Assembly: GCA_027491115.1 (NCBI GenBank)
Contig: JAIXWV010000005.1
Location: 1-64,000, forward strand
Origin: Pseudomonadota bacterium
Lineage (GTDB): Bacteria > Bdellovibrionota > UBA1018 > CAIMNF01
DNA length: 64,000 nucleotides
Direction: 5' to 3'
Position 1 is the stretch's first letter, and the number at the start of each line of letters is the position of its first letter. Below, piece after piece: positions 5,177 to 19,188 of the stretch. The notes under the pieces were generated by a model that was not told the origin of the DNA, made no database searches, and saw only the letters and a program-made list of their open reading frames with translations. Position numbers and translations under genes: made by a program.

Positions 5177-5342
5177 TTTTTTGGACAACCCCCCAATTCT
5201 CAATCAACCCGAGAAGAAGGCTCAGGGCAAAGGGTGGGCGAATGTCCAAATAAAACATTGTAATGACAAGATAATCTCTTGAGATCCCCTTGAGACCGCA
5301 CCTGGCTCAACCTTTGCATCCCTCACTATGAGAGTAGAGAAT

Positions 5343-6563
5343 ATGAACAAATCAAATTGGTTGAGAGCTCTAATTTCCCCAGCCCCCTTCAGTGCCTTAC
5401 TGCTCGGGTTGACCGCTTGTGGGCCCCAGGCCTTTGTCCCGAGCGGGATGGCTTATCGTCAAACTGCGGCGGGTTCTGTGAACATCCCTCCGAAGGTTGA
5501 TCTGGTCCTCGGTGTATCGATGAACGGAACCATGCAGAACATCGCTCCCGGGATCCAGACCGAGATCCCAGCCTTCCTGCAGGGCCTCGAGAACAGCGGC
5601 TGGGATTACCGTTTTGTATCGATTCCCCTGAGTGAACAGACCCCCGTCGATCCGCAAAGTTTCCCGATCGAGCGTAAGGTCTCTGTATCTCGCTATGACA
5701 CCAACACTCCGGAGGCGAACTGGCTCTCACCCTATCCAGGAGCCAGGTATGACGATCCGAAGCTCGGCATCGCCCCCCAACTGATAGCACCCGTGTTCAC
5801 TGTTCCGTCGGTAAACGCCGGAGTGATGAACGGACGTGAAACTGGAGTCCACAACCAGGTAAATTTCCTCTCCCGAGCAGACGTTCTTCCCTCCAATGGA
5901 AGAAATCCGAACGCCAACTTCCTCCGCAGGGATGCCTTATTGGCCGTGATCACTCTGTCGAACGGGGACGATCGCTCTGGGGGTAACTGGGTCTACGACC
6001 CCTACTACAACCGGACTGTCTGGCAATCCGGTGGAACCGCCGTTGACCTTGCCTATCGCGACACCTTCATCGATGTAAAGCAGAGTGCTTCACTGGTTCG
6101 TTATTACTCGGTGGTTGCACACCAACGCACCAGCTGCCGTGGATACGGGACTTGGTCGGGAATCCGCTATGAAGGGTTCGCGAGCATGCTGGGCGGGATC
6201 TCTCTCGATATTTGCGACAATCCAGTGAAAACAGCTCTCGAAGCGGTTGCCAACCACCTTCAAACCGTGAAGCTCTCGTTCCGGAAAAAATTCCTCGTGA
6301 TGGGAACCGAGCCGAATCCAGGGACGATCAAAGTGGTCCGGTACACCAATGGCGAATCCTCCAGGGCGGAAGTGATTCCTCAGAGCCCGACCAACGGATG
6401 GACCTACATCGGATACCGCACCAACCAGAACACGATTGATGCACCCCTTGAAATGGAACCAGCAACCGGCTACATGGTGGAACTCCATGGTACCGCGAAG
6501 CTCATGGGTTCTGATACGGCTGACATTACCTACCAGAACGCCGGTGAGCCGGTTTCGAACTGA
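5343..6563 (+). CDS. Lipoprotein with von Willebrand A-like fold, unknown role
   Basis: 406 residues from ATG 5343 (an in-frame ATG at 5328 is possible). The signal peptide ends in lipobox LTAC, so a lipid-anchored envelope protein. After it, VDLVLGVSMNGTMQNIAPG resembles the first strand and MIDAS loop of VWA proteins, but the DxSxS metal motif is incomplete. ITLSNGDDRSGGNW later resembles the VWA strand-4 region. The last 90 residues look like a beta-rich domain. The gene diverges from the HD-GYP gene across a 209-bp spacer holding an ATCTC-TT-GAGAT palindrome (5274-5285). The next gene starts 2 bp after its stop. Confidence 0.6.
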   Translation: MNKSNWLRALISPAPFSALLLGLTACGPQAFVPSGMAYRQTAAGSVNIPPKVDLVLGVSMNGTMQNIAPGIQTEIPAFLQGLENSGWDYRFVSIPLSEQTPVDPQSFPIERKVSVSRYDTNTPEANWLSPYPGARYDDPKLGIAPQLIAPVFTVPSVNAGVMNGRETGVHNQVNFLSRADVLPSNGRNPNANFLRRDALLAVITLSNGDDRSGGNWVYDPYYNRTVWQSGGTAVDLAYRDTFIDVKQSASLVRYYSVVAHQRTSCRGYGTWSGIRYEGFASMLGGISLDICDNPVKTALEAVANHLQTVKLSFRKKFLVMGTEPNPGTIKVVRYTNGESSRAEVIPQSPTNGWTYIGYRTNQNTIDAPLEMEPATGYMVELHGTAKLMGSDTADITYQNAGEPVSN

Positions 6564-6565
6564 AA

Positions 6566-6892
6566 ATGAAAACTGGGAAATCGGTCCTTAACGGATTCCT
6601 CCTGCTCTCGGGTACCTACGTCTGCCCTCATGACCCGAACATCTGTGACCAGGAAGTCCGGGTCTACGGAAGGAATGGCCAAACCACCGCAGTGAAAGTC
6701 GAATACACCGGGTACTGTGGGAGCATGGGGCCCTACCTTTATCCCTGCTCAGGACGGATCTGTAAAGACACCCACGCCGAGTTCAAAATAGAAAATGAAC
6801 GGTCGTACTCATGGAAGAACCTCGGGCACCCCTATTCGTGCCGATTCGTACTAAAGACGAAGCACCCGTCTCAATTTCTTCCCGCCGAATGA
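6566..6892 (+). CDS. Small cysteine-rich protein, unknown
   Basis: 108 residues beginning 2 bp after the lipoprotein stop, which suggests coupled translation. A hydrophobic stretch lies near residues 8-18 but there is no clear signal-peptidase site. Six Cys (at about residues 19, 27, 50, 60, 65 and 92) could form disulfides in an exported domain. The 3' end overlaps the convergent adenylating-enzyme gene by 42 bp. No family recognised; reality is supported by tight spacing only. Confidence 0.45.
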   Translation: MKTGKSVLNGFLLLSGTYVCPHDPNICDQEVRVYGRNGQTTAVKVEYTGYCGSMGPYLYPCSGRICKDTHAEFKIENERSYSWKNLGHPYSCRFVLKTKHPSQFLPAE

Positions 6893-8128
6893 GGGGATTC
6901 CCCGGTGAAACCGGAGGACAGGAGCTTGCCCTCCGATCCGGACGGCCAGATCACCCACTTCTTCACCGACCCGACGCTGGATCCTGGGAAAGTCATCTTC
7001 CCCGGCCTTGATGTGGATATCGATCTCGCCCAGAAGAGCCTGTGTGACCAGATATTCTTCGATCGCGTCATCCGCGGTGATCACCGCCCGCCGGATGAAA
7101 TCGGGAAAGACCGCAACCGATCCCTCTCCCGAACAGCTTTTGAACTCGAGGACATCATCCGAGCGACCTTCGATACTTTCGATGGCGGTCATCACCGAAC
7201 CGCACGGACAAGGTGACGAACGGAGAGTCAGGATGTCATTCAAGCGATACCGAATCACAGGTTGAGAGGTCCTGGTGAAATCCGTGATGATCGGGATGAA
7301 CTTGGTCCGACTGGAATCGAGCCACTCAGGTTCGATCCTCACGCAGTCCTCGTTCAGGTGGAGAGTCCCTTCCTGACAACTGGCTGCGAGAAAGCCCTCT
7401 GTGCACTGGTAAATTTGGTGCACCTTCATTCCAAAAGACCTCGATATCCGTCGTTCATCCAAGGGATCCAGCGTCTCGGCTATGGAAAAAATCCTCATCG
7501 GACGGGATGAAATCCTACCCTCTTCACGGGCCTCGGCAAGCCGGATCAGCATTGAAGGAGGAGCGAACAGCAGATCCGGCTGCTGGGCTTCCAACCGCTT
7601 CAAATGGTCCTCCATGGAAGCCAGGAGGTCGTAGAACTCGAACTGGATCCTCGATCCCGCGGAAGCGGTGTAGAGATTGGAATTCGCCCTCATGAAAAAC
7701 GCAACACGATACCGGCTGAAAATCGACCCAGGCAGGATTTTCCCGAGAATCGTCCCTGCATGGCGGGCCCGCTCGGAATCCGAAACCAAAAACAGCCCGC
7801 GATTCCCACTAGTCCCGGAGGAAAGTCCCACCGTGACCCCGTTCAGGGTTGGGGTGAAGTCACGGCTGTTTTCAGCCATGAAAGCCAGATCGAAGGCGCG
7901 ATCGCGCTCCACCCCGACCGTATTGAGATCGGAAAAGTGTTCCATCATGATCTTCTTGTCAATGACCCCTCCGGACCATTCTCTGTAAAACTTCGAATGC
8001 CGCCGAACCCAATCCAGATGACTCGCAATGCGACGATTCTGAAAACGCTCGAGTGACGCCCGATCCCGGAAACGTCTTCCATACCGGGTCATCAGGTAAT
8101 GAAAGAGGATCCGCAACTTAAACCACAT
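6851..8128 (-). CDS. Adenylate-forming enzyme, F390-synthetase/PaaK-like
   Basis: 425 residues from ATG 8128, which overlaps the preceding stop and has a GAGAGAG ribosome site; a GTG at 8158 would lengthen it. Motifs of the acyl-adenylating family are present: the phosphate loop SSGTSGNRG at about residue 103, YQCTEG, RYRLNDIL with a following CPCGS. It is the compact phenylacetate-CoA-ligase/F390-synthetase-like branch, which activates a carboxylate with ATP. In this cluster it could activate a fatty acyl or beta-hydroxy acid, as OleC does in olefin synthesis. Substrate and final step (CoA ester, AMP ester or lactone) are not visible. Confidence 0.8.
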   Translation of the reverse strand: MWFKLRILFHYLMTRYGRRFRDRASLERFQNRRIASHLDWVRRHSKFYREWSGGVIDKKIMMEHFSDLNTVGVERDRAFDLAFMAENSRDFTPTLNGVTVGLSSGTSGNRGLFLVSDSERARHAGTILGKILPGSIFSRYRVAFFMRANSNLYTASAGSRIQFEFYDLLASMEDHLKRLEAQQPDLLFAPPSMLIRLAEAREEGRISSRPMRIFSIAETLDPLDERRISRSFGMKVHQIYQCTEGFLAASCQEGTLHLNEDCVRIEPEWLDSSRTKFIPIITDFTRTSQPVIRYRLNDILTLRSSPCPCGSVMTAIESIEGRSDDVLEFKSCSGEGSVAVFPDFIRRAVITADDAIEEYLVTQALLGEIDIHIKAGEDDFPRIQRRVGEEVGDLAVRIGGQAPVLRFHRGIPSFGGKKLRRVLRL

Positions 8129-8966
8129 GGGTCCGCTCTCTCTCCATCGCTTCGTCACAATGGCAGGTCAGGATCCGGAGTCTGCCTGATGACCGGGTCT
8201 CGCAGTCGAGTCGATGAATCCGTGCAAGGGTGTCCCGATAGGCCGGTGGATCGTGGAAGATCAAATCTGTGATCCGCATCGGCGGGATTTCTTCCCGGAA
8301 GGAGGGGGTCAGCCAGGCTGCATCGGCTACCAGAAGATAGTCCACTCCCCCGACTGAAGGAACATAGAGCCCCATCTGTCCGAGAGTATGACCCGGGAGT
8401 GGCACGAGGAAGACACTTCCGTCACCCAGCAGATCATTGCCCGTCCAACCCGGACCTAGAGATTTCAACTCCACAGGAAAATCGTCCGACCAGAGGGTTC
8501 GGGACTCGAACGAGTCCGGAAGGAGGGCCTTCAAAAAACCGTGTCTCACCTGACTGACGGTTCCTAAAGAAACCAGGTGATCGTATTCTCTGCGTGAGGC
8601 GACATACCGTGCCCGGCTGAAATCCGAAGCACCTCCGATGTGATCCGCATGGAAGTGAGAAAGAATGACGTGTGAAATGTCGGTTTCTGCGAGACCAAGA
8701 CCACGTAAGCGGCCGACAGCACTGGTCTCAGAACTGACAGTCACCGGGGTGACCCAGGCATAAAGCTTTTCTGGAAACCGGCGGGTCACCTCTTTGAATC
8801 GGCCCGAATAGCCCGCATCGAACAACAGATACCCGTGCCGGGGATGTTCGATCAATGCCACGGTCGATGGAAAGCGGATCTTCCGCCATTTCCCGGTGAC
8901 CGGATTCACGATCTTTTCATACTGCTCGGTGAATCCCGCTTCTAGAAAGGTGATCGAGCGAACCAT
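8118..8966 (-). CDS. Metallo-beta-lactamase-fold hydrolase, lactonase-like
   Basis: 282 residues with the di-zinc signature HFHADH (about residue 107), a later His in PLPGHTLGQMG and Asp in VADAAW. Overall arrangement resembles N-acyl-homoserine-lactone lactonases and related esterases of the MBL superfamily. It overlaps the SDR gene by 25 bp and the adenylating-enzyme gene by 11 bp, so all three are translated as a block. Inference: it may open or process a thioester or lactone made by its neighbours, taking the place of OleB in an Ole-like pathway, or act as an editing thioesterase. Confidence 0.82.
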   Translation of the reverse strand: MVRSITFLEAGFTEQYEKIVNPVTGKWRKIRFPSTVALIEHPRHGYLLFDAGYSGRFKEVTRRFPEKLYAWVTPVTVSSETSAVGRLRGLGLAETDISHVILSHFHADHIGGASDFSRARYVASRREYDHLVSLGTVSQVRHGFLKALLPDSFESRTLWSDDFPVELKSLGPGWTGNDLLGDGSVFLVPLPGHTLGQMGLYVPSVGGVDYLLVADAAWLTPSFREEIPPMRITDLIFHDPPAYRDTLARIHRLDCETRSSGRLRILTCHCDEAMERERTHVV

Positions 8967-9931
8967 GGGATCGTCCTTTCGAGTCCCTCCTGCATCCCGA
9001 TCGCCGGGTGGTAACCGAGGAGGGTCTTGGCTTTTTCAATCGACAAGGTTCGGGTGTAGGCAAGCGTGCAAACCCCGTAACGGGTCAGCAGGGGTTCCCG
9101 ATCGGGTGCGAGATTCCGGTGCACCCACTCCAGCAATCCTGCGATCTTCCACGCTCGTTCCACCGGGATGTACTTTCTCTTTACCGGATAACCCAGTCTT
9201 CCGAGCAGCGCTTCGAGTGTGCGCAACTGATTCACCGGCTCGCCGTTCGTGATGTTGAATATCTCTCCAAGAGCCTGGGGTCCGGCACCTAGAGCACAAA
9301 TAATCGCAGACACCACATTGTCCACGAACGTCAAGTCAATCCGAACTGACTCATCCATCACGGGAACAAAACCCTTCTGAGCGACACGGATGAGTCGAGG
9401 CAAGATAGCGGTGTCCCGGGGGCCGAAGATCCCTTGCGGACGCAGAATGAGCGTCCCGAGACCGAGCTGGAAATACTCTTCGACGATCCTCTCGGCCTTC
9501 AGCTTCGAGTCCGCATAATCATTGATCATGGTGGGAGGCAACGGATCACTCTCACGAATCGATTCTTTTGAGGCCTTTTCGACATAAACGCTCGGGGTGG
9601 AGATGTGAACCAGGCGCGCAACACGCTTGTCGAGGGCGACCGAACACAGGACCTGGGTAGCCAGCACATTCGAGTGGTAAAAATCCGCGGTCCTGCCCCA
9701 AGGACTGGAGAGGGCCCCACAATGGACGACCATCCCGTTTTCCGGAATGACCTTTTCCAAAAAAGTCCGGTCACCGAGATCTCCGGCATGCGTGGTGGCC
9801 CCCAGAGCCGAGAGGCGGGCCAACGCGACCGGGTTCCGTCCGAGAGCGATCACACCCCGCCCCTGCTCGAGCAGGAGTTCGGTCAATCGACCACCGAGAA
9901 ATCCACTGGCACCCGTCACGACCACCGTCAT
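8942..9931 (-). CDS. NAD(P)-dependent extended SDR, 3-beta-HSD/OleD-like
   Basis: 329 residues. The start at 9931 overlaps the ATP-grasp stop by ATGA and has GGAACGG upstream. The Rossmann motif TGASGFLGG is at the N-terminus, the catalytic YADSK is at about residue 155, and a Ser-containing HISTPSVYV strand precedes it, all typical of extended SDRs such as 3-beta-hydroxysteroid dehydrogenase and OleD. The expected reaction is reversible reduction of a keto group to an alcohol; next to a condensing enzyme, reduction of a beta-keto acyl product is the natural guess. Confidence 0.85.
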   Translation of the reverse strand: MTVVVTGASGFLGGRLTELLLEQGRGVIALGRNPVALARLSALGATTHAGDLGDRTFLEKVIPENGMVVHCGALSSPWGRTADFYHSNVLATQVLCSVALDKRVARLVHISTPSVYVEKASKESIRESDPLPPTMINDYADSKLKAERIVEEYFQLGLGTLILRPQGIFGPRDTAILPRLIRVAQKGFVPVMDESVRIDLTFVDNVVSAIICALGAGPQALGEIFNITNGEPVNQLRTLEALLGRLGYPVKRKYIPVERAWKIAGLLEWVHRNLAPDREPLLTRYGVCTLAYTRTLSIEKAKTLLGYHPAIGMQEGLERTIPWFARSPF

Positions 9932-11103
9932 GGGCCGTTCCATTCGATGTCGCGGGTGGAGGCTTCGAGTGGAGTCACCTCGTCACGGAGCCCCGCACGA
10001 ACCAGTTGGTAGAATGAAATGAACTGATCAAAAAACGGTACTGGATCCCGGGAATCGAAGACCACTTCCCGTGCACCAAAAAAAATGGAACCCCAGAGTG
10101 AAAGTCGATGCCAGGACCTGACCGATGGAAGCCCGTAAACCAACATGGCCAATCTCAACTGGGCCGAATCGCCCGCCCGGGGCGTGAGCGTTTTCGGGGA
10201 GCTCACTTCACCGGCAAGAAGCTCGGCGAACTCGGCGTTCCCTGCAAACAGATGCAGCCCGCTGGTCGCTCGAGGGTTACACTCCAACGCGCGGACAGTG
10301 CCGGACTCATCCTGGATGAAATCAAAAGCGATCTGACCGGTGAACCCGGTCGCTTCAACGAAACGCGCCACCCAGGCCTCAATCGCAGGATGTGAAACCG
10401 CTTCAAAACAAATTCCAGCACCCTTCCCGGCCTTGAACTCATGAGAATAGGTCAAATGGGCAAGGAGACGACCTTCCCTGGCAAGAGAATAAGTGCAGAA
10501 CTCCTTCCCGGGCAGGAACTCCTGCACACACCAGGCTGTGCCGTTTGCAAGTTCTTCCACATCGGTCAATGCCCGGTCCCGATCCAGAATCAGGGTTCGA
10601 GTCGCGAAACGGGAGAATTCGGGTTTGAGCACCACACGGTCCCCACCGATCGCGTCGATCGCAGACCTGAGCTCCTCGAGGGTGGTAGCCCGGAACGTGA
10701 ACGGCACGGTCAATCCTGCGGTGAGGGCAAGCGTGTTGAATTCGATTTTGCTGTGCAAGCGGCTCAGGGTCGCAGGATCATCCGACCAGAACAGCACACT
10801 GCGGGATGAATCTTTCTTCAGCTCACCTCTCAAGGGCGCGAGATGAAACACTTCCTCGCAGGTGGGAACGAGAACCTCCACGTTCTCTTGCTCGAGAACC
10901 CTCCTGACAGCTGAACGAAACGCCTCCGGCCCTGCATTGGGAGCCGGTACTTGGTAAAAAGCGGCGAATGCATTCGACCTCCTCGAGAGGGCATGGTCGA
11001 GACTCTCCGCTCCGATCACACGATGCCCTGCGCGACTCAATGCACGGGCAAGATCCAATGTCACCGGGGCCCGGGCTCCGGTCAAAAGAAAGGTCTTTCC
11101 CAT
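9928..11103 (-). CDS. ATP-grasp ligase, carbamoyl-phosphate-synthase-like
   Basis: 391 residues. An N-terminal pre-ATP-grasp Rossmann-like domain (LLTGARAPVTLDLARAL) precedes an ATP-grasp domain with VVLKPEFSRFATR, VQEFLPGKEF and the metal-binding ALECNPRATSGLH at about residue 274. Such enzymes activate a carboxylate as acyl phosphate and join it to an amine or thiol, often an amino acid. It starts 1 bp after the KAS III-like stop, so it belongs to the same operon. Its presence distinguishes the locus from OleABCD and suggests the product contains an amide or peptide bond; the substrates are unknown. Confidence 0.82.
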   Translation of the reverse strand: MGKTFLLTGARAPVTLDLARALSRAGHRVIGAESLDHALSRRSNAFAAFYQVPAPNAGPEAFRSAVRRVLEQENVEVLVPTCEEVFHLAPLRGELKKDSSRSVLFWSDDPATLSRLHSKIEFNTLALTAGLTVPFTFRATTLEELRSAIDAIGGDRVVLKPEFSRFATRTLILDRDRALTDVEELANGTAWCVQEFLPGKEFCTYSLAREGRLLAHLTYSHEFKAGKGAGICFEAVSHPAIEAWVARFVEATGFTGQIAFDFIQDESGTVRALECNPRATSGLHLFAGNAEFAELLAGEVSSPKTLTPRAGDSAQLRLAMLVYGLPSVRSWHRLSLWGSIFFGAREVVFDSRDPVPFFDQFISFYQLVRAGLRDEVTPLEASTRDIEWNGP

Positions 11104-11104
11104 C

Positions 11105-12106
11105 TCAGTACTCGAAGATCACCATTCCGAGGGACATGCCGGCGGAGGTTCCGAGGAGGAGTACCTTGTCCCCTCTCCGAATCCGTCCTTCCTCGACTGC
11201 ATGATGAAGCGCGAGGGGAATCGATGCGGCAATCATGTTTCCGTGCTTCGACAGGATGTCCATGTACTTCTCTTGGGCAATTCCGAGCTTCCTCCGGACC
11301 AACTCCATTCCGTTCCCACTGGCCTGATGGGGTACCACGAGGGCGATATCATCGAGACCGAGTCCTGCCTCATTCATGGCTTCATCAAAAAATCCGGGAA
11401 TGGTCTCAAGAACCAGACGGAACACCTTACGTCCGTCCATACAGAACAGGAATTTTTCAGAATCGGGTTGTTCTGTCTTCGGATGGACCCGGGTCCCTCC
11501 TCCTTCAATCCGGCAGTACCCGGCCCCTTCACTGAAGGTCTTCATGTGGGCATGGATCACTCCCGATCCCTCTCCGGGAGCAGGACGGGTGACGATGGCT
11601 GCGGCCGCTCCGTCACCGAACAAAGCATAAGCTTCATGCTGTGCCGGGTTGAGGCCGACCGATGCAATCTCGGTTGAAACGATTGCGATCGTGCCGAACC
11701 GGCCTGTCGCGATAAGTGATGAAGCAAGATCGAACGCAGTCACAAAACTGAGGCAAGTGGAATTGACATCGAAGCAGGGAATCGGGACGTCCGGACGATT
11801 CAAGGCTTTTTGAATCAGAGCCGCGGTTCCGGGAATGGCTTGTTCAGCAGAACCACTGGCACAAATGATGGCATCGAGATTCTCGTAGCGGACTCCTGAT
11901 TTTTCGAGAGCGGACATCAGGGCGAACGCGCCCATCTGGGAGGCGGTTTCGTCGGTGACATAACGGCGCTCGGAAATCCCGGTCATCTGCTCCGACTTAC
12001 CACGGGCAAGACCCAAGCGATCATCCACTTCAGCAGCGGTCACCACCCGCTTCGGGAGGTAGGATCCAGTGGACAGAATCTTCAAGGGACGTTTGTCGAT
12101 TTTCAT
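11105..12106 (-). CDS. KAS III-like condensing enzyme (FabH/OleA superfamily)
   Basis: 333 residues from ATG 12106 (a TTG at 12142 is part of the promoter). The thiolase-fold triad is complete: Cys in VNSTCLSF at about residue 117, His in VPHQASG and Asn in HGNMIAAS. The C-terminal GTSAGMSLG is typical of KAS III. It should form a C-C bond between acyl thioesters. The sequence looks more like secondary-metabolite or OleA-type enzymes than housekeeping FabH, but no fabH lies in the fab operon in this window, so a housekeeping role cannot be ruled out. Heads the minus-strand arm of the cluster. Confidence 0.85.
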   Translation of the reverse strand: MKIDKRPLKILSTGSYLPKRVVTAAEVDDRLGLARGKSEQMTGISERRYVTDETASQMGAFALMSALEKSGVRYENLDAIICASGSAEQAIPGTAALIQKALNRPDVPIPCFDVNSTCLSFVTAFDLASSLIATGRFGTIAIVSTEIASVGLNPAQHEAYALFGDGAAAAIVTRPAPGEGSGVIHAHMKTFSEGAGYCRIEGGGTRVHPKTEQPDSEKFLFCMDGRKVFRLVLETIPGFFDEAMNEAGLGLDDIALVVPHQASGNGMELVRRKLGIAQEKYMDILSKHGNMIAASIPLALHHAVEEGRIRRGDKVLLLGTSAGMSLGMVIFEY

Positions 12107-12113
12107 GAAGCGA

Positions 12114-12142
12114 ATCTTACCTGACCTTTTTTGTTTTTTCAA
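12114..12142 (-). promoter_or_regulatory. Leaderless-type promoter of the KAS III-like operon
   Basis: Minus strand TTGAAA (12137-12142), 17-bp spacer, TAAGAT (12114-12119), then 7 nt to ATG 12106. Transcription would start at or next to the A of the start codon. No Shine-Dalgarno sequence sits before the ATG. Confidence 0.6.
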
Positions 12143-12171
12143 TAGACTTTATGTAATAAACCGGATATTTT
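12143..12171 (+). promoter_or_regulatory. Promoter of the COQ4-like operon
   Basis: TAGACT (12143-12148), 17-bp spacer, TATTTT (12166-12171). This unit would have a leader of about 17 nt with GGAG at 12183-12186, so the divergent arm uses a conventional ribosome site. The box begins immediately after the opposing -35 hexamer, so the two polymerase footprints overlap. Confidence 0.5.
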
Positions 12172-12194
12172 CTCTCCCCCATGGAGCGTTCTGA

Positions 12195-12869
12195 ATGGCT
12201 CAACTGAAAAAGTGGTTCCGGTTTCTTTCTGCATGTTTCTTGTTGATCTCGGGCGGAGTGATCCTCATCTTCAACCGCCGCAACTACAAGCCGATTTACC
12301 GTGGTTTCCGGTACTTCATGGAGCATGAGAGTTATCAGATCACTCTCCGACGTCTCCGGGAGGACCCGGGGACGCGCGAGCTCCTGGAAACGCGTTTCCG
12401 GCAGGGGCTCCCCGTCGATTGGAAAAGACTGAAGGAACTACCCGAGGACACCCTCGGGTTCCAGTTCGCCCGCTTCATGAATCACCCGGAGGTCACCCCC
12501 TTGGAACGCCTCCCGGAAGCCAAGACCGAGATTTCACCTGAAATCGACTACCTCAGGCAACGAATCAGGTTGATTCACGACATTCACCATGTGGTGTGCG
12601 GATACCCTGCTGATGAGATCGGTGAAATGGGGATCTCGGCGTTCTATGTGGCGCAAATCAACAGCCCCTTGAACTCCATGCTGCTCGCGTTCGGACTGAT
12701 CAAGTGCACGCTCCAGATGCCCGCCCGCCTGCCTGAACTGATGCAAGAAATCACACGCGGTTGGCACATGGGCCTGAACGCCAAGAATCTGTTCGGGATC
12801 AAATGGGAAGAACTGTGGGAGACCCCTCTCGACGAAGTCAGAAGACAAGTGGGAGTGGAGGTCTTGTGA
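12195..12869 (+). CDS. COQ4-family protein
   Basis: 224 residues. The COQ4 zinc motif HDxxHx11E is exact: HDIHH at about residue 131, 11 residues, then Glu. A hydrophobic N-terminal segment (about residues 10-26) suggests membrane association. COQ4 acts in ubiquinone synthesis on a membrane-bound aromatic ring; here no other quinone genes are nearby and it is coupled to a desaturase (GTGA overlap), so it more likely handles a lipid or polyketide-like product of this cluster. GGAG 8 nt upstream supports the start. Confidence 0.85.
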   Translation: MAQLKKWFRFLSACFLLISGGVILIFNRRNYKPIYRGFRYFMEHESYQITLRRLREDPGTRELLETRFRQGLPVDWKRLKELPEDTLGFQFARFMNHPEVTPLERLPEAKTEISPEIDYLRQRIRLIHDIHHVVCGYPADEIGEMGISAFYVAQINSPLNSMLLAFGLIKCTLQMPARLPELMQEITRGWHMGLNAKNLFGIKWEELWETPLDEVRRQVGVEVL

Positions 12870-13891
12870 GTTCCGGATTTTCAAAAGAATTGAAACATGA
12901 AGTTCTCAGCCTTCTGAAGTCGGATCCCCATGGACGATATGCCGACCCACTCACCTGGCTCAAAGTTGCGATCCTGTGCGGTCTTACTGCCCTCTGCTAC
13001 GTCAGTCTCGTCTTCCTGCCATCCACTTTTCCAACCCGCTTGGTGCTGGTTCTGGCTCTTGCAGTCAGCACACTCTTCCTCGGTCTGAATGTCATGCACG
13101 AAGCCGCACATGGCAACCTTTCCAGGCACCCCATGGTGAACCGTGTGTTGGCATTCATTTTCGACCTCTTCGGGATCAGCTCCGATCTGTACGCCATCAA
13201 GCACGTTCACTTTCACCATCACTACACGAACCTTCACGAGTTTGATGGGGACATCAACGAGGCGCCACTGATCCGGATGTCCCTGGAGCAGGAGCGTTGG
13301 GGCATTCACCACTACCAGGCACTCTACACACCGTTCCTGTATTCACTCATTACCCTGACGTGGCCGATCTTCGATCTCATGCGACTCCTGCAACCTCGGG
13401 TCGGGCAGAAACCCTTTAACCCTCCTCATCCCGGGGTCATTGTCCGGATTCTCCTGTTCAAAGGAGTCCATTACCTACTCGCCCTGGGGCTCCCCGCATC
13501 CCGGTTCGGATTGCCGGAAACCCTTTTCCTCTTCACTCTTTTTCATGTGATTCTCGGAGTAATTCTGGCCCTGATCTTCCAGGTGGCCCATGTCCACGAG
13601 GCGGGACTACTTCAGCCCGGAACCACCAAGAAAGACTGGCACCTTCACCAAATGCTCACCAGTGCGGACTTCAGCACCGGGAACCCATGGACTAATTTCA
13701 CCTTTGGCGGTCTCAATTTCCAGACCATCCATCATCTGTTTCCGAATGTCTCCCACCGGCACTTCCCTGCGATCCAGAAGATCGTCATCCGCCTCTCGGA
13801 AAAGCACGGAATCCCCTACACACGATTTGAAAGTTTCGGTGAGGCGATCCGGGCGCACTTCAGTCTGCTTCAACGGTTGGGACGGTCCTGA
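12866..13891 (+). CDS. Membrane fatty-acid desaturase
   Basis: 341 residues from GTG 12866, chosen because GTGA overlaps the COQ4-like stop and GGAGG lies just upstream. The three histidine boxes of the membrane di-iron desaturase family are present: HEAAH (about residue 75), HVHFHHH (about 112) and QTIHHLFP (about 288). Hydrophobic segments at about 35-75 and 190-245 form the membrane hairpins. It should insert a double bond (or hydroxyl) into an acyl chain using O2. It could tailor the precursor or product of the adjacent condensing enzyme. Confidence 0.9.
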   Translation: MSSGFSKELKHEVLSLLKSDPHGRYADPLTWLKVAILCGLTALCYVSLVFLPSTFPTRLVLVLALAVSTLFLGLNVMHEAAHGNLSRHPMVNRVLAFIFDLFGISSDLYAIKHVHFHHHYTNLHEFDGDINEAPLIRMSLEQERWGIHHYQALYTPFLYSLITLTWPIFDLMRLLQPRVGQKPFNPPHPGVIVRILLFKGVHYLLALGLPASRFGLPETLFLFTLFHVILGVILALIFQVAHVHEAGLLQPGTTKKDWHLHQMLTSADFSTGNPWTNFTFGGLNFQTIHHLFPNVSHRHFPAIQKIVIRLSEKHGIPYTRFESFGEAIRAHFSLLQRLGRS

Positions 13892-13894
13892 ACC

Positions 13895-14968
13895 ATGATT
13901 GAGATCAAGGTTCACGAGAACGAGGCGGGTCCTCGTGAAAAATCACTCCTAAGCATTATTCAGGAAAGCCGCGTTCCCGGCATGGTGACTTATCATTACG
14001 AGCGCCCCGAAGGGTACGAGGCCTTCGCCCGGCTCCAGGGATCCGGATTCCAGGTGGTCGAAGCTGTGGAAGAAGGAGTCACCCTTGGATTCACCCAAGT
14101 GACCTTCGACCGAGTAAACTGGGAAGGAAATGAGATCAGCATCGCCTACAGTGGAGACACCCGGGTCGGAATGGCTTCTCGTGGCAAGCGGATCTCGGAT
14201 GCCCTGATCAGTCAAGCATGCTCGCTCACGGTTCCGGTCTTGGGGGCTGTGATGAACAGCAATTCGACCGTTCTCGGTTCGAAGCTCCAACACTGGAGCA
14301 AATCGGGAATCCACTTCCAGCCGATCGGCGAGCTCGAAGCCTGCTTTTACCCGCCCCTGAATAAACCCCGATCCCATCCGGATCTGACCTGCCGCCCGGC
14401 CCGGAACTCCGACTTACCGTCCATGTTCGCATTGTGGGGACTGTATTCAAAAAGTCACAATCTGACACGGGCCTACACCGATCTCGACTCCTTCGCAAAC
14501 GACTTCCCGCGCGGTACCTCTCTTGAAACGACACTGCTCGTTCATCAAAATGGCGAACTGATCGCCATGACCGGACTCTGGAACCAGGATGAGATCCGGA
14601 CTATTCGGGTGGACTCGAGGGCGGGAATCTTGAACTTCGCCCTGTCCTGGATCCCGGACACATGGATCCGGATTCCGGCGGCAGGAGAAGAACTGAAGAT
14701 CGCCTACTCCTACCGGCATGCTTGGATTCCAGAGCATCCGATGTCAGCACAGGCTCTCCATTACCTCATTCAAGAGGCCCGGTACCGCTCCGGGCAGTGG
14801 AACCGTCACTTTTTCTGTTTCGGAATCGACACCCACGACCCACTGGCCCTCCAAGCACGAAAAGGAGTCCTTTTCAGTAACAGGGCCCGTATCATTTGTG
14901 ATCCTCGTGGAAACCCAGACATTCTAAAAAGCGCCAAAAGCCTGCACCTTGAAGTGGGAATGGGCTGA
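13895..14968 (+). CDS. GNAT-like protein, possibly two tandem acyltransferase domains
   Basis: 357 residues beginning 3 bp after the desaturase stop. The sequence has the look of two GNAT-type halves (about residues 20-160 and 165-350), with CRPARNSDLPSMFALW opening the second half like a GNAT beta1-alpha1 unit and TTLLVHQNGELIAMTGLW like beta2-beta3. A Q/RxxGxG/A acetyl-CoA loop is not clear, so fold assignment is tentative. Last gene of the plus-strand arm; it could acylate an amine in the pathway or be a non-catalytic partner. Confidence 0.55.
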   Translation: MIEIKVHENEAGPREKSLLSIIQESRVPGMVTYHYERPEGYEAFARLQGSGFQVVEAVEEGVTLGFTQVTFDRVNWEGNEISIAYSGDTRVGMASRGKRISDALISQACSLTVPVLGAVMNSNSTVLGSKLQHWSKSGIHFQPIGELEACFYPPLNKPRSHPDLTCRPARNSDLPSMFALWGLYSKSHNLTRAYTDLDSFANDFPRGTSLETTLLVHQNGELIAMTGLWNQDEIRTIRVDSRAGILNFALSWIPDTWIRIPAAGEELKIAYSYRHAWIPEHPMSAQALHYLIQEARYRSGQWNRHFFCFGIDTHDPLALQARKGVLFSNRARIICDPRGNPDILKSAKSLHLEVGMG

Positions 14969-14991: not shown

Positions 14992-15654
14992 TCAGACGGG
15001 AAAAGTCATTTCGGGGACATCGCCAGTGACCAAGAGAGGGGCTTCGGTGGCCCGTACAATCTCGTCTACTGTGACACCGGGAGCCCGCTCCACCAGCTTG
15101 AGTCCTTGTGGCGTCACATCGATCACCGCGAGCTCCGAGACGATCCGGTTCACACAACGTTTTCCGGTCAAGGGGAGCGAACATTTGCGAAGGATCTTGC
15201 TCTTGCCGTCTTTCGACACATGTTGCATCGCCACGACCACGCGCTTGGCTCCGGCCACGAGATCCATGGCTCCCCCCATGCCTTTTACCAATTTTCCGGG
15301 AATCATCCAATTGGCGAGATCACCCTGTTCGTCGACCTCCATTGCACCGAGTACGGTCAGATCGATCTTTCCGGCCCGGATCATGGCAAACGAATCGGCG
15401 CTCGAGAAAAAGGCCGCACCCGGAATCACGGTTACGGTTTCTTTCCCGGCATTGATCAAGTCGGCGTCGACCTCCTGTTCGGTGGGATAAGGGCCGAGAC
15501 CGAGAATCCCGTTCTCACTCTGGAGGACCACCTCGATTCCCCGGGGGATGTAGTTCGCCACAAGGGTCGGAATACCGATACCGAGATTGACGTAATACCC
15601 GTCACGAAGCTCCTGGGAAATCCGGATGGCGATCTGTTCACGTGTGAGACTCAT
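14992..15654 (-). CDS. scoB: 3-ketoacid CoA-transferase subunit B
   Basis: 220 residues. Family I CoA-transferase beta subunit: [10 protein letters not shown], the [10 protein letters not shown] segment carrying the catalytic Glu at about residue 46, [18 protein letters not shown] and [13 protein letters not shown]. With subunit A it moves CoA from succinyl-CoA to acetoacetate or another 3-ketoacid in the cytoplasm. ATG 15654 overlaps the subunit A stop by ATGA, coupling synthesis of the two chains. Converges on the GNAT-like gene with a 23-bp gap. Confidence 0.93.
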
Positions 15655-16367
15655 GATTGTCCTCCGCTTCGGACCACTTTTCTCTCGATCCGTTTCTGAT
15701 AATCTTTTCCTTCGAAAATTCGATGGACATACACCCCGGGCAGATGGATTTCGTCGGGCTCGAGTGCTCCCACCGGAACCAGCTCCTCCACCTCGACGAT
15801 GGTGATCTTGCCCGCCATGGCACACAAGGGATTGAAGTTGCGGGAGGTCTTCCGGAAAACAAGATTCCCCATCGAGTCGCCTTTCCAGGCCTTCACAATC
15901 CCGAAATCGCCGACGATCCCCTTCTCCAACACAAACTTACGCCCGTTGAATTCACGTTCTTCTTTACCTTCAGCAATCAGAGTCCCGACCCCGGTCGGCG
16001 TATAAAAAGCGGGTATCCCCGAGCCTCCGGCACGGAGCCGTTCGGCGAGAGTCCCTTGTGGTGCGAACTCGAGTTCAAGTTCACCGGAAAGGACCAACTG
16101 TTCAAAGAGCTTGTTCTCACCGACGTAGCTCGAAACCATTTTTCGAACCTGTTTCTTTTCGAGCATCAGACCGATACCGAACCCATCGACTCCTGCATTG
16201 TTGGAAACGCAGGTGAGATCCTTCACGCCCTTTCTCACCAGAGCGGCGATGGAATTTTCAGGAATTCCACACAATCCGAACCCACCCATGGTGAGAATCG
16301 CACCGTCGAAAACATCCTTGACCGCTTCATCCGGACCGGACACCACTTTGTTCATACCCTTGGCCAT
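15651..16367 (-). CDS. scoA: 3-ketoacid CoA-transferase subunit A
   Basis: 238 residues from ATG 16367 with GGAG upstream. Family I CoA-transferase alpha-subunit features: [17 protein letters not shown] near residue 30, [10 protein letters not shown], and [26 protein letters not shown]. Pairs with ScoB. Lies 22 bp after the solute-binding-protein gene and downstream of the thiolase, together enough to convert acetoacetate into two acetyl-CoA. Confidence 0.93.
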
Positions 16368-16389
16368 GATCACTCCTTCGTCAGACAAA

Positions 16390-17967
16390 CTACTCTTTTT
16401 CGGACGGTACGTCATCCACGATCACTCCCGAAACGATTGGAAGAGCCACATGGTTGAACTCCAATTTGCGCACCCAGGAATGCTGGAGAATCGAGTACTC
16501 CTCGTCCAGGAGGGGCAACATTACGAATTCCTCTGTCAGGTAATGCCGCTGTGCCTGCTCATAGGCTCTGAGCGCCTCGTTGGGAAGCTTAGCCTGCATA
16601 CCTTCCTCGACCCACTGCTGGAAAAAAGGACTCTCGAACTTGAGCCGACTGTTCGATGCCGACTTTCCGTAGGGCCTCAGAAAATCCTCCGGCGTCGGAA
16701 CTTTAGCACTCCACCCCACCAGAATGACGTCATAGTCGAAAATATTGGCATACAGATTGAACTCCCGTTCATGGAGAGCTGCGAGGTCGACGTTGATTCC
16801 AAGTCCTTTCTGGATCTGCTCTTGGATTTCCTTACCGACCGAAACATTGGCCGGATCGATCCGGGTCAGGATGCGGAGCTTGAACGTTGGACCGAACACG
16901 AGCCCGGATTCTTTGAGCGACTTCCTGGCCTGGACGAGATTGAACTCAGGAGTGAGGGACTTCCTGGATCCCGGAAGCGGATGGGGAATGAGACCGTTCG
17001 AAATACGACCCGGAAAACTCGCGGCGGTGCGAACTTTGGACCGGTCGATAGCCCTGAAGACGGCTTTCCGGAAGTGGCGATTGTTCATTGGAAACTTGAG
17101 GGCGTTTGAAACCAAAACATGATTCCGGTAAATCCGGGGATGCTTGAGGTCGGGCTTTCCCCGGTAAGGCTTCACCTGGTCGGCCTTGGGGTTGGGTAGA
17201 AACGCGTAGTATCCGCTCCGGTACTTTTCGAGAATGGTGGTGGCATCCTGTTCGAAATGGACCTCCACCGAATCAACATTGGACAGACCCTTTGGATAAT
17301 GGGGGTTCCGCTTCAGATTCAGCTTTTTACCGGGCTCAAGACTGTCGGTCAAAAAAGGTCCGTTTGACGGCAGGATCCCGGCGCGCCAAAGATTCCCACC
17401 GTACTTTTCAATCATGTCCTTCCTGACCGGATAAAAAGGCCAGAATGTGGTGAGCGACTCCCAACCGGCCATTGGCCGCCGGAACTCCACCTCGAGCAAA
17501 TGGTCCCCTCGGGCACGGATCCCCACTTTCGAGGCATCCTGGATCTTCTTCTTGCGGAAATCCTCGGCATGGAGAATGTCGAAAAAATAATAATTGTAGA
17601 GAGAAGTCCCGAAGGGGGAGATCACACGAAGCCAAGATTCGACGAAATCCTGCGCATAAACAGGTCTTCCATCGGACCACTTGGCGTCCTTGCGAATGTG
17701 AAACACATATTTCTTCAGATCTTTTGATTTGACCACCGATTCGGCCATGGCCGGCACAAGCTTTCCGGACGGATACTCATACCGGAATAAACCCTCGGCG
17801 ATCAGATGAATGATCGGTGCCTCGGTAGTGGTGACCGTCGCGGTCCAATCCAGAGTGGCCGGTGCGTCGGGAATCGGAAAACGCAAAACCGCGGCGTTAG
17901 CTCCGGCTGGAATCAACAGGAGCAGGCAAAAGAACCGGAATGCATCATCAGCACAATTCCAGCGCAA
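16390..17967 (-). CDS. Periplasmic solute-binding protein, peptide/oligopeptide type (family 5)
   Basis: About 525 residues from a TTG at 17967 that has GGGGAGG 9 nt upstream; GTG and TTG codons further 5' (to 18006) are alternatives. A signal peptide ends near PAGANAA with no lipobox Cys. The mature part follows the OppA/DppA pattern: [34 protein letters not shown]-like entry, [39 protein letters not shown]. Such proteins bind peptides or other solutes for an ABC importer, but no permease or ATPase gene is next to it. It overlaps the thiolase 3' end, so it is embedded in a ketone-body operon. Confidence 0.82.
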
Positions 17968-19129
17968 TCGCAGTCGCCTCCCCGCCACCGATGCAGATTC
18001 CGGCAAGACCTCTCCGGAGGCCCTGTTCCTTCAGCGCAGAGATCAGGGTGATCAAAATCCTTGCGCCAGATGCTCCGATCGGGTGACCAAGACTGATCGC
18101 CCCACCCCTCACGTTCAGTTTTTCAGCGGGAATGGAAAGCTCCCTTTGGGCGGCCATGGCCACCACAGCGAACGCTTCGTTCACTTCGAACAAATCGACA
18201 TCACCCACACTCCACCCGGCCTTCTTCAGCGCTGCCTTCATGGCACCCGCCGGTGCCGTGGTGAACCACTCGGGGGCTTGGGCATGGGTGGCCATCGACA
18301 CGATTCTCGCGATCGGACGGGCCCCCGTCTTCAATGCACGCTCCTCACGCATGAGGACCAGTGCCGCAGCCCCGTCATTCAAACTGGAGGCATTCGCAGC
18401 GGTGACCGTTCCAGCTTTATCGAAGGCGGGCTTCAGAGTGGGGATTTTCTCGAACTTCACTTTACCCGGAGCCTCGTCGTGCTCGAAGGTCACCGACTCA
18501 CCTTTCGGGCCCTTGATCGTCATGGGTACGATTTCGTCTGAAAAGGCACCGCGGGCCTGGGCCGCTTGGGCGCGCTGATAGCTCGCAATCGAGTAGGCAT
18601 CCTGGGCCTCCCGGGTGAATGCGAACTCCTTGGCACAAATCTCACCACAATTTCCCATGTGCTGCGAGTGATAGGGATCCCAAAGACCGTCGTGAATCAT
18701 GGAGTCGAGAACCTGGGAGTTCCCCATTCTGAATCCGCCACGGGCCTGGGGCAGAAGATAGGGCGCGTTCGACATGCTCTCCTGTCCTCCTGCGACCACC
18801 ACCTCACTCTCGCCTGTCAGCAAGGATTGAGTGCCGAGCATGACGGCCTTCATGCCGCTTCCGCAAACTTTGTTGATGGTCAGCGCCGGGACGGACACCG
18901 GAAGTCCTGCGGCAATCAGCGCCTGCCTCGCAGGGGCTTGACCGACCCCGGCAGTCAACACGTTGCCCATGATCACTTCAGAAACCTGATCGGGCTCCAC
19001 TCCGGCGCGTTGAAGAGCGGACCGGATCGCATGGGCTCCCAGAGCCGGAGCGGTCAATGTCGCAAGGGCTCCTTGAAAAGAGGCGATCGGAGTACGGGCA
19101 TAAGCGGTGATCACGATATTGGAATTCAT
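17948..19129 (-). CDS. atoB: Acetyl-CoA C-acetyltransferase (thiolase)
   Basis: 393 residues from ATG 19129. Complete thiolase motifs: nucleophilic Cys in NKVCGSGMKAV at about residue 88, NEAFAVVAM, GGAISLGHPIGASGAR with the catalytic His, and the second Cys in the C-terminal AGICIGGGEA. Cleaves acetoacetyl-CoA to two acetyl-CoA or runs in reverse. First gene of the operon that continues into the solute-binding protein and CoA-transferase. Promoter TTGCAA-17-TAGAGT ends 7 nt before the ATG, so the mRNA is probably leaderless. Confidence 0.93.
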   Translation of the reverse strand: MNSNIVITAYARTPIASFQGALATLTAPALGAHAIRSALQRAGVEPDQVSEVIMGNVLTAGVGQAPARQALIAAGLPVSVPALTINKVCGSGMKAVMLGTQSLLTGESEVVVAGGQESMSNAPYLLPQARGGFRMGNSQVLDSMIHDGLWDPYHSQHMGNCGEICAKEFAFTREAQDAYSIASYQRAQAAQARGAFSDEIVPMTIKGPKGESVTFEHDEAPGKVKFEKIPTLKPAFDKAGTVTAANASSLNDGAAALVLMREERALKTGARPIARIVSMATHAQAPEWFTTAPAGAMKAALKKAGWSVGDVDLFEVNEAFAVVAMAAQRELSIPAEKLNVRGGAISLGHPIGASGARILITLISALKEQGLRRGLAGICIGGGEATAIALELC

Positions 19130-19136
19130 GCTCCCC

Positions 19137-19188
19137 ACTCTAGCCAAAGGCCTTCACCCTTGCAATGTCATGAGCTTCGGATTATTCG
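19137..19188. promoter_or_regulatory. Symmetric divergent promoter sharing one -35 box
   Basis: The self-complementary hexamer TTGCAA (19160-19165) reads as -35 on both strands. Minus strand: 17 bp, TAGAGT (19137-19142), 7 nt, ATG of thiolase. Plus strand: 17 bp, TATTCG (19183-19188), 7 nt, ATG of the HtrA protease. Both start codons are exactly 30 bp from the shared hexamer. The plus -10 is the weaker. Confidence 0.6.

Follow-up and report, generated by a model that had tools for sequence, protein, structure and literature searches.

Organisation of the gene block

The window analysed here is a stretch of 64,000 nucleotides (positions 1 to 64,000 of contig JAIXWV010000005.1, assembly GCA_027491115.1) from a Bdellovibrionota genome of 2.5 Mb, whose near relatives are metagenome-assembled genomes (Bdellovibrio sp. 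ZAP7, Bdellovibrionales bacterium and Oligoflexia bacterium). Positions 6851 to 14968 hold a compact block of eight genes, all with open reading frames, which an earlier note on this DNA had put forward as an undescribed acyl-condensing cluster. The block is real, conserved and coherent, with two corrections to that first reading: its enzymatic core is widespread, and its condensing enzyme is not OleA-like. It is a lineage-specific version of a recurring enzyme set and probably makes an unusual fatty-acid-derived molecule.

The minus-strand arm is composed, in order, of the genes for a β-ketoacyl-acyl carrier protein synthase III (KAS III), an ATP-grasp ligase, a short-chain dehydrogenase/reductase (SDR), a metallo-β-lactamase (MBL)-fold hydrolase and an adenylating ligase of the F390/PaaK-like type, with a 1-bp gap at the first junction and overlaps of 16, 25 and 41 bp at the following ones. 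The plus-strand arm encodes a COQ4-like protein, a desaturase and a tandem-GNAT-fold protein (Table 1). The sequence indicates GTG 12866, within the stop of the COQ4 gene (GTGA), as the most likely start of the desaturase, and the tandem-GNAT-fold gene begins 3 nt past the desaturase stop. The frames, overlaps and families of eight packed genes in two divergent operons were confirmed as first described, and the shared spacer of 88 bp is exact with the KAS III ATG, the TTG upstream being a possible start. A divergent promoter in this spacer was discarded, since it yielded a single weak sigma-70-like match, on the minus strand, and the promoter-like matches of the region were not above those of shuffled sequences.

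Table 1. Features of the eight-gene block, its spacer and its flanks (positions in the window)
Feature	Position	Strand	Basis or remark
F390 synthetase-related / PaaK-like acyl-adenylating ligase	6851..8158	-	TIGR02304, 474 bits (cut-off 251.9)
MBL-fold hydrolase	8118..8966	-	Pfam Lactamase_B, 5.3e-16; AttM-like model 74.6 bits, below cut-off
Extended SDR oxidoreductase, OleD-like	8942..9943	-	Pfam Epimerase; NF042422 OleD 188 bits (cut-off 580)
ATP-grasp ligase, PRK06849-like	9928..11103	-	353 bits (cut-off 406)
KAS III, CorB/MxnB-like	11105..12106 (alternative TTG start 12142)	-	PRK07204, 406.6 bits (cut-off 402)
Divergent spacer, 88 bp	12107..12194		Holds if KAS III starts at ATG 12106
COQ4-like protein	12195..12869	+	Pfam Coq4, 4.4e-28, 98.5 bits; PDB 3msq, 2.7e-28
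Membrane fatty-acid desaturase	12866..13891	+	Pfam FA_desaturase, 2.5e-31; His boxes; GTG start
Tandem-GNAT-fold protein resembling N-myristoyltransferase	13895..14968	+	Predicted structure
Small open reading frame between left flank gene and ligase gene, membership uncertain	6566..6892	+	Kept in the two nearest carriers only
Left flank gene, outside the cassette	5328..6563	+	Kept also in congeners without the cassette
scoB-scoA CoA-transferase, right flank, outside the cassette	14992..16415	-	Kept also in congeners without the cassette

Conservation within the genus and phylum

In what follows, G numbers designate genomes of the window's phylum or genus and L numbers the loci compared. The eight genes are syntenic, with the same flanks, in three congeners (G001, G007 and G004), with protein identities of 62-93% in two of them and 42-76% in the other. 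Such synteny, together with the retention of the catalytic motifs of the core enzymes over 24-25 loci, indicates that the block did not arise by chance. Six of the 12 genomes of the genus carry the ligase, and COQ4 is found in the same six and in none of the remaining six. The left flank gene and scoB are kept in the non-carriers, where they lie from 3 bp (G006) to about 2.4 kb apart (with one other open reading frame between them in G002 and two in G008), while the carriers have the 8.4-kb block at this site. The block is, in several genomes of the genus, an all-or-none accessory island. Its GC content (0.559) equals that of the rest of the window, which rules out a recent transfer recognisable by base composition and means that the gain was not recent or that the donor was similar. 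Concerning a phage origin, a PHROG search of the block gave no match except a generic epimerase.

At the level of the phylum, TIGR02304 scored above its cut-off in 11 of 192 genomes, and these same 11 hold the 11 best PRK07204 matches, all of at least 318 bits, the next best (261 bits) being at the level of housekeeping FabH. Ligase and KAS III lie on one contig within about 5 kb in 10 of the 11 carriers; in the remaining one (G003) they are on separate contigs that both end inside the cassette, that is, the assembly is broken. The distance matrices of the core proteins correlate with one another (Mantel r 0.47-0.80, permutation p ≤0.0045, one row per genus), which shows a common history, not a function, with shared species history contributing to the signal.

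The two arms are separable, because in G005 the core is accompanied by two desaturases on one contig, and COQ4 and the acyltransferase lie next to a lon-like gene on a second one. The claim of a single functional cluster survives, given that the core genes co-occur and co-evolve and that the plus-strand arm accompanies the core within the genus; the idea of two divergent arms as a fixed unit does not, the plus-strand arm being lineage-specific and largely on another contig in G005. Likewise, independently scattered homologues, which had been named as a sign against the cluster, were not seen for the core and were seen in part for the accessory arm.

Recurrence of the core in other phyla

A core of KAS III, SDR, MBL hydrolase and F390/PaaK-like ligase, often with the ATP-grasp enzyme, was found in near-constant order across Bdellovibrionota, Bacillota, Pseudomonadota and Fusobacteriota, with carriers from soil as well as from the gut. 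Beyond the window's genus, it is carried by five other Bdellovibrionota (G016, G028, G029, G158 and G159), by two Paenibacillus, Pontibacillus and rumen Clostridiales among the Bacillota, by Fusobacterium, and by alpha-, beta- and gammaproteobacteria (Paracoccus, Ketogulonicigenium, Pseudomonas, Paraburkholderia, Burkholderia and E. coli). The Bdellovibrionota, Bacilli and Paraburkholderia forms include the ATP-grasp enzyme, and those of E. coli, Burkholderia stagnalis, Paracoccus, Ketogulonicigenium, Clostridiales and Fusobacterium lack it. The set can hence not be called undescribed, as had been proposed, since the five-gene core is found in no fewer than four phyla and its parts already bear names from PGAP. 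A characterised pathway for the cassette was not found in the open-access full-text literature, which omits most subscription papers, so that this absence is weak evidence. In Pseudomonas syringae pv. actinidiae, a mutant with a transposon in IYO_RS29540, a gene annotated as coenzyme F390 synthetase, is listed in the table of a virulence screen (PMC9823363).

The E. coli operon (L044:12209-19090; L058:3110-9991) sits between narI and the tyrT/RtT region and encodes KAS III, SDR, MBL and F390-related proteins followed by a PAP2 protein, a fatty-acid hydroxylase and an acyl-CoA desaturase. Counted as present at ≥80% of its length, it occurs in 673 of 5,426 complete genomes (about 12%), and the same seven genes are found in Burkholderia stagnalis (L054). 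The E. coli K-12 record aligned at the RtT repeat alone and thus lacks the cassette. The four core genes of the operon follow one another as they do in the window, with 32-44% identity between the enzymes (29% for the desaturase), but the operon differs in having the PAP2 protein and the hydroxylase and in being devoid of the ATP-grasp enzyme, COQ4 and the N-myristoyltransferase (NMT)-fold protein that closes the plus-strand arm of the window. No described function for this operon was found in the open-access literature.

The cassettes of Paenibacillus, Pontibacillus and Paraburkholderia (L038, L045, L048 and L053) share with the window KAS III, the ATP-grasp enzyme, SDR, the F390-type ligase and, except for L038, the MBL hydrolase, whereas COQ4 and the desaturase are missing from them. 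Those of Paenibacillus and Paraburkholderia have a GNAT protein as N-acyltransferase-type partner, which is not detectably homologous to the window acyltransferase. In the exception, Paenibacillus sp. MSJ-34 (L038:4804-10464), the SDR gene is directly followed by that of the F390-type ligase; P. urinalis has the MBL gene. On a plasmid of Pseudomonas sp. Leaf58 (L046:3321-13254), several open reading frames are inserted among the core genes, in what is possibly a decaying or rearranged cassette.

Around this core the tailoring genes change from lineage to lineage. A desaturase accompanies it in the window's genus, G016, G029, E. coli and Burkholderia; a fatty-acid hydroxylase in G016, E. coli and Burkholderia; and a PAP2 protein in the last two. 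A distinct GNAT protein is encoded near the ATP-grasp or ligase gene in G028, G158, G029, Paenibacillus and Paraburkholderia. Other neighbours are a Rieske oxygenase (G028), a methyltransferase (G003), COQ4 with a cupin and a formyltransferase (G159), glycosyltransferases (GT21 in Fusobacterium, a UDP-glycosyltransferase in Clostridiales) and a sulfotransferase (Paracoccus and Ketogulonicigenium). It is mainly this constancy of the core, while mostly lipid-type tailoring changes around it, that suggests a specialised lipid pathway. Just downstream of the G029 cassette (L034:296-4209) lie genes for a desaturase, a Paenibacillus-type GNAT protein, an α/β-hydrolase-like product and an SDR.

The condensing enzyme and its relatives

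In a PDB sequence search, the nearest solved relatives of the window KAS III were CorB (218 bits) and MxnB (217 bits), the corallopyronin and myxopyronin ketosynthases, both matched over the full length, against 68.6 bits for OleA, limited to residues 253-340 in the C-terminal part. The C130-H272-N302 triad (numbered from the TTG start) is invariant in the cassette enzymes. A glutamate deprotonates the bound acyl chain in OleA (E117) and in PpyS (E105), the PpyS E105A variant giving no product, and CorB and MxnB have Val94 at this position (PMC4578411). Ile103 of the window enzyme aligns with CorB Val94, each being placed 27 residues before the catalytic cysteine (Cys130 in the window), and the position is occupied by Ile or Leu in all 24 cassette KAS IIIs. 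OleA membership was rejected on account of the missing glutamate, and the claim that the first enzyme mirrors OleA is not supported. Without the glutamate, head-to-head condensation of plain acyl chains appears unlikely, and a malonyl or β-ketoacyl nucleophile is the better supposition from the sequence. The fold, the Cys-His-Asn triad, the missing glutamate and the top similarity all agree with a CorB/MxnB type. A KAS III tree sets the cassette proteins off from most housekeeping FabHs and does not resolve them from CorB/MxnB; nor does it resolve a monophyletic cassette clade (2 label changes).

Such kinship raises a rather unlikely alternative, in which KAS III would join two β-ketoacyl chains, as CorB and MxnB do, to form a pyrone or related ring that SDR, MBL and COQ4 would reduce, open or decarboxylate, the product being a ring-bearing signal or antibiotic. 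A lactonase-like MBL in the operon would fit this scheme, as would the oxidative decarboxylation at ring carbon C1 that is reported for human COQ4 in coenzyme Q synthesis (PMC11495197). However, CorB and MxnB act inside large polyketide synthase clusters, from which they take up two β-ketoacyl chains bound to acyl carrier protein (ACP), whereas the window cassette encodes neither a polyketide synthase nor an ACP, the partners of KAS III being instead the SDR, the MBL hydrolase, the PaaK-like ligase and the ATP-grasp enzyme. Furthermore, most cassettes have no COQ4, sequence proximity leaves the substrate unfixed, and the lack of the glutamate is a feature of ordinary FabH as well, which also counts against this scheme.

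A true Ole-type pathway is improbable. The window does share with the ole pathway the grouping of a KAS III-fold enzyme, an OleD-like SDR and an adenylating enzyme in one operon, and the MBL hydrolase is lactonase-like. The earlier note saw OleD and OleC in the third and fifth enzymes, with MBL in place of OleB. OleD is indeed the best NCBIfam model for the SDR, but the score of 188 bits is well below the 580 bits that the model sets as its cut-off. The correspondence with OleC and OleB is unproven, as the family assignments place the ligase in another family than OleC (PaaK/TIGR02304-type, 474 bits) and make an MBL-fold protein the sole hydrolase of the cassette, where the ole pathway has the α/β-hydrolase OleB. 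The ATP-grasp enzyme and the acyltransferase are additional to the Ole set, and the missing glutamate and distant OleA likeness noted above also weigh against it. What stands of the original proposal is a plausible acyl-condensing pathway, with OleD as the best model of the SDR, but not one of OleA-type condensation.

The remaining enzymes

The ligase motifs SSGTSG and YQxTEG and a C-terminal K/R are invariant or nearly so over 25 loci, and the solved relatives of this enzyme are phenylacetate-CoA ligases. The MBL residues HxHxDH, GH, D and H, and the YxxxK motif of the SDR, are kept across the cassette loci, the nearest solved relatives of the MBL hydrolase being acyl-homoserine lactone (AHL) lactonases (PDB lactonase GcL, 1e-13). 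The resemblance to AHL lactonases, the action of PaaK relatives in aromatic catabolism and the adjacency of scoAB and a thiolase might suggest a degradative or quorum-quenching module, where a lactone signal would be opened by MBL and the acid set free would be catabolised through the PaaK-like ligase and KAS III/SDR, yet this is highly improbable, because KAS III belongs to a biosynthetic condensing family, the core is elsewhere accompanied by desaturases, fatty-acid hydroxylases, glycosyltransferases and acyltransferases, and scoAB stays as a neighbour in non-carriers too.

The AlphaFold2 model of the ATP-grasp enzyme (pLDDT 92.5) was matched by Foldseek to PurK, L-amino-acid ligase, carbamoyl phosphate synthase and PylC, and as a model it confirms the class of the enzyme, not its substrate. 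In the COQ4-like protein, the HDxxH...E metal motif (H128, D129, H132 and E144) is invariant over six loci. The last protein of the plus-strand arm had no Pfam or NCBIfam family match. Its AlphaFold2 model (pLDDT 79.7) shows a tandem GNAT fold, with N-myristoyltransferases as top Foldseek hits (E 2.9e-12, TM 0.61, 13-14% identity), so that it is predicted, at the level of the fold only, to be an acyltransferase of NMT fold; what the earlier note called GNAT-like is thus modelled as a tandem fold closest to N-myristoyltransferase. Homology to the Paenibacillus/Paraburkholderia GNAT protein was rejected (hhalign probability 0.2%), and the sequences suggest that acyltransferases were recruited independently in the window's genus and in those lineages. 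All five homologues examined end exactly in ...LHLExGxG. The NMT mechanism uses the terminal carboxylate, and the fixed C-terminus would fit an NMT-like mechanism, model confidence being low in this part of the protein.

Proposed pathway and its implications

Taken together, these data make it fairly probable that the block is a cassette which has spread horizontally and serves to make a specialised product derived from fatty acids, the likeliest candidates being a modified membrane lipid and a lipid-like signal. The best reading is that of a fixed core that condenses, reduces, hydrolyses and activates, to which swappable tailoring arms are added. The analysis establishes gene content and order, conservation across phyla, co-occurrence, active-site residues, presence or absence at one fixed site and predicted folds; substrates, reaction order and product are all inferred.

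In this pathway, KAS III would take up an acyl group on Cys130, with acyl-CoA or acyl-ACP as donor, and carry out a Claisen condensation, for which, given the absence of the OleA/PpyS glutamate, the nucleophile would probably be malonyl-ACP (as in FabH) or an acidic β-ketoacyl thioester (as in CorB/MxnB), not a plain acyl chain. The β-keto group would next be reduced by the OleD-like SDR, and the lactonase-like MBL would release a free acid by hydrolysis of an intermediate that is a thioester or lactone. The PaaK-like ligase would re-activate a free carboxylate as acyl-AMP/CoA. In the branch with the ATP-grasp enzyme, the latter would attach an amine or amino acid through an amide-type bond; the finished acyl chain would then be passed to an amine by the NMT-fold protein in the window's genus and by an unrelated GNAT protein in other lineages. 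Finally, the desaturase would unsaturate the alkyl chain and the COQ4-like protein would take a carboxyl group off an intermediate.

Several points weigh against this scheme. The cassette has no ACP gene, and both SDR and ATP-grasp enzyme score below their family cut-offs. The MBL-less Paenibacillus cassette means that the MBL step may be dispensable. As the KAS III tree leaves the cassette unresolved from CorB/MxnB, the core could, from its sequences, have been assembled more than once. In addition, carrying the decarboxylase role of COQ4 over to the cassette is a guess by analogy, borrowed from a human protein with an aromatic ring as its substrate, and the cassette has no evident ring-forming enzyme.

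A broader proposal, advanced tentatively and with less than even confidence, is that the KAS III/SDR/MBL/F390-ligase core moves between phyla as one unit and represents a class of lipid pathway so far uncharacterised in bacteria, the E. coli form of the core being without the ATP-grasp enzyme. Each lineage would add its own arm for amidation, desaturation, hydroxylation, glycosylation or decarboxylation, in the present case with a bacterial NMT-fold enzyme and with a COQ4 decarboxylase that acts elsewhere than in the making of quinones. If this were true, a single pathway would explain genes to which annotation pipelines give vague labels in many bacteria, among them about one in eight of the complete E. 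coli genomes. Because the core is common to a Bdellovibrio relative, Paenibacillus, Fusobacterium and E. coli, the product class could be sought in easily grown bacteria. The arm found in the window would add two oddities, namely a COQ4 protein that seems to have no part in quinone synthesis and a bacterial protein with a predicted N-myristoyltransferase fold.

Neighbouring genes

To the right of the block, positions 14992-19147 of the minus strand hold overlapping genes for a thiolase, an OppA-like solute-binding protein, scoA and scoB. It is unusual for a ketone-body/CoA-transferase operon to include a protein of the oligopeptide-binding type; in G002 (L059), too, scoA is preceded by an OppA-like gene.

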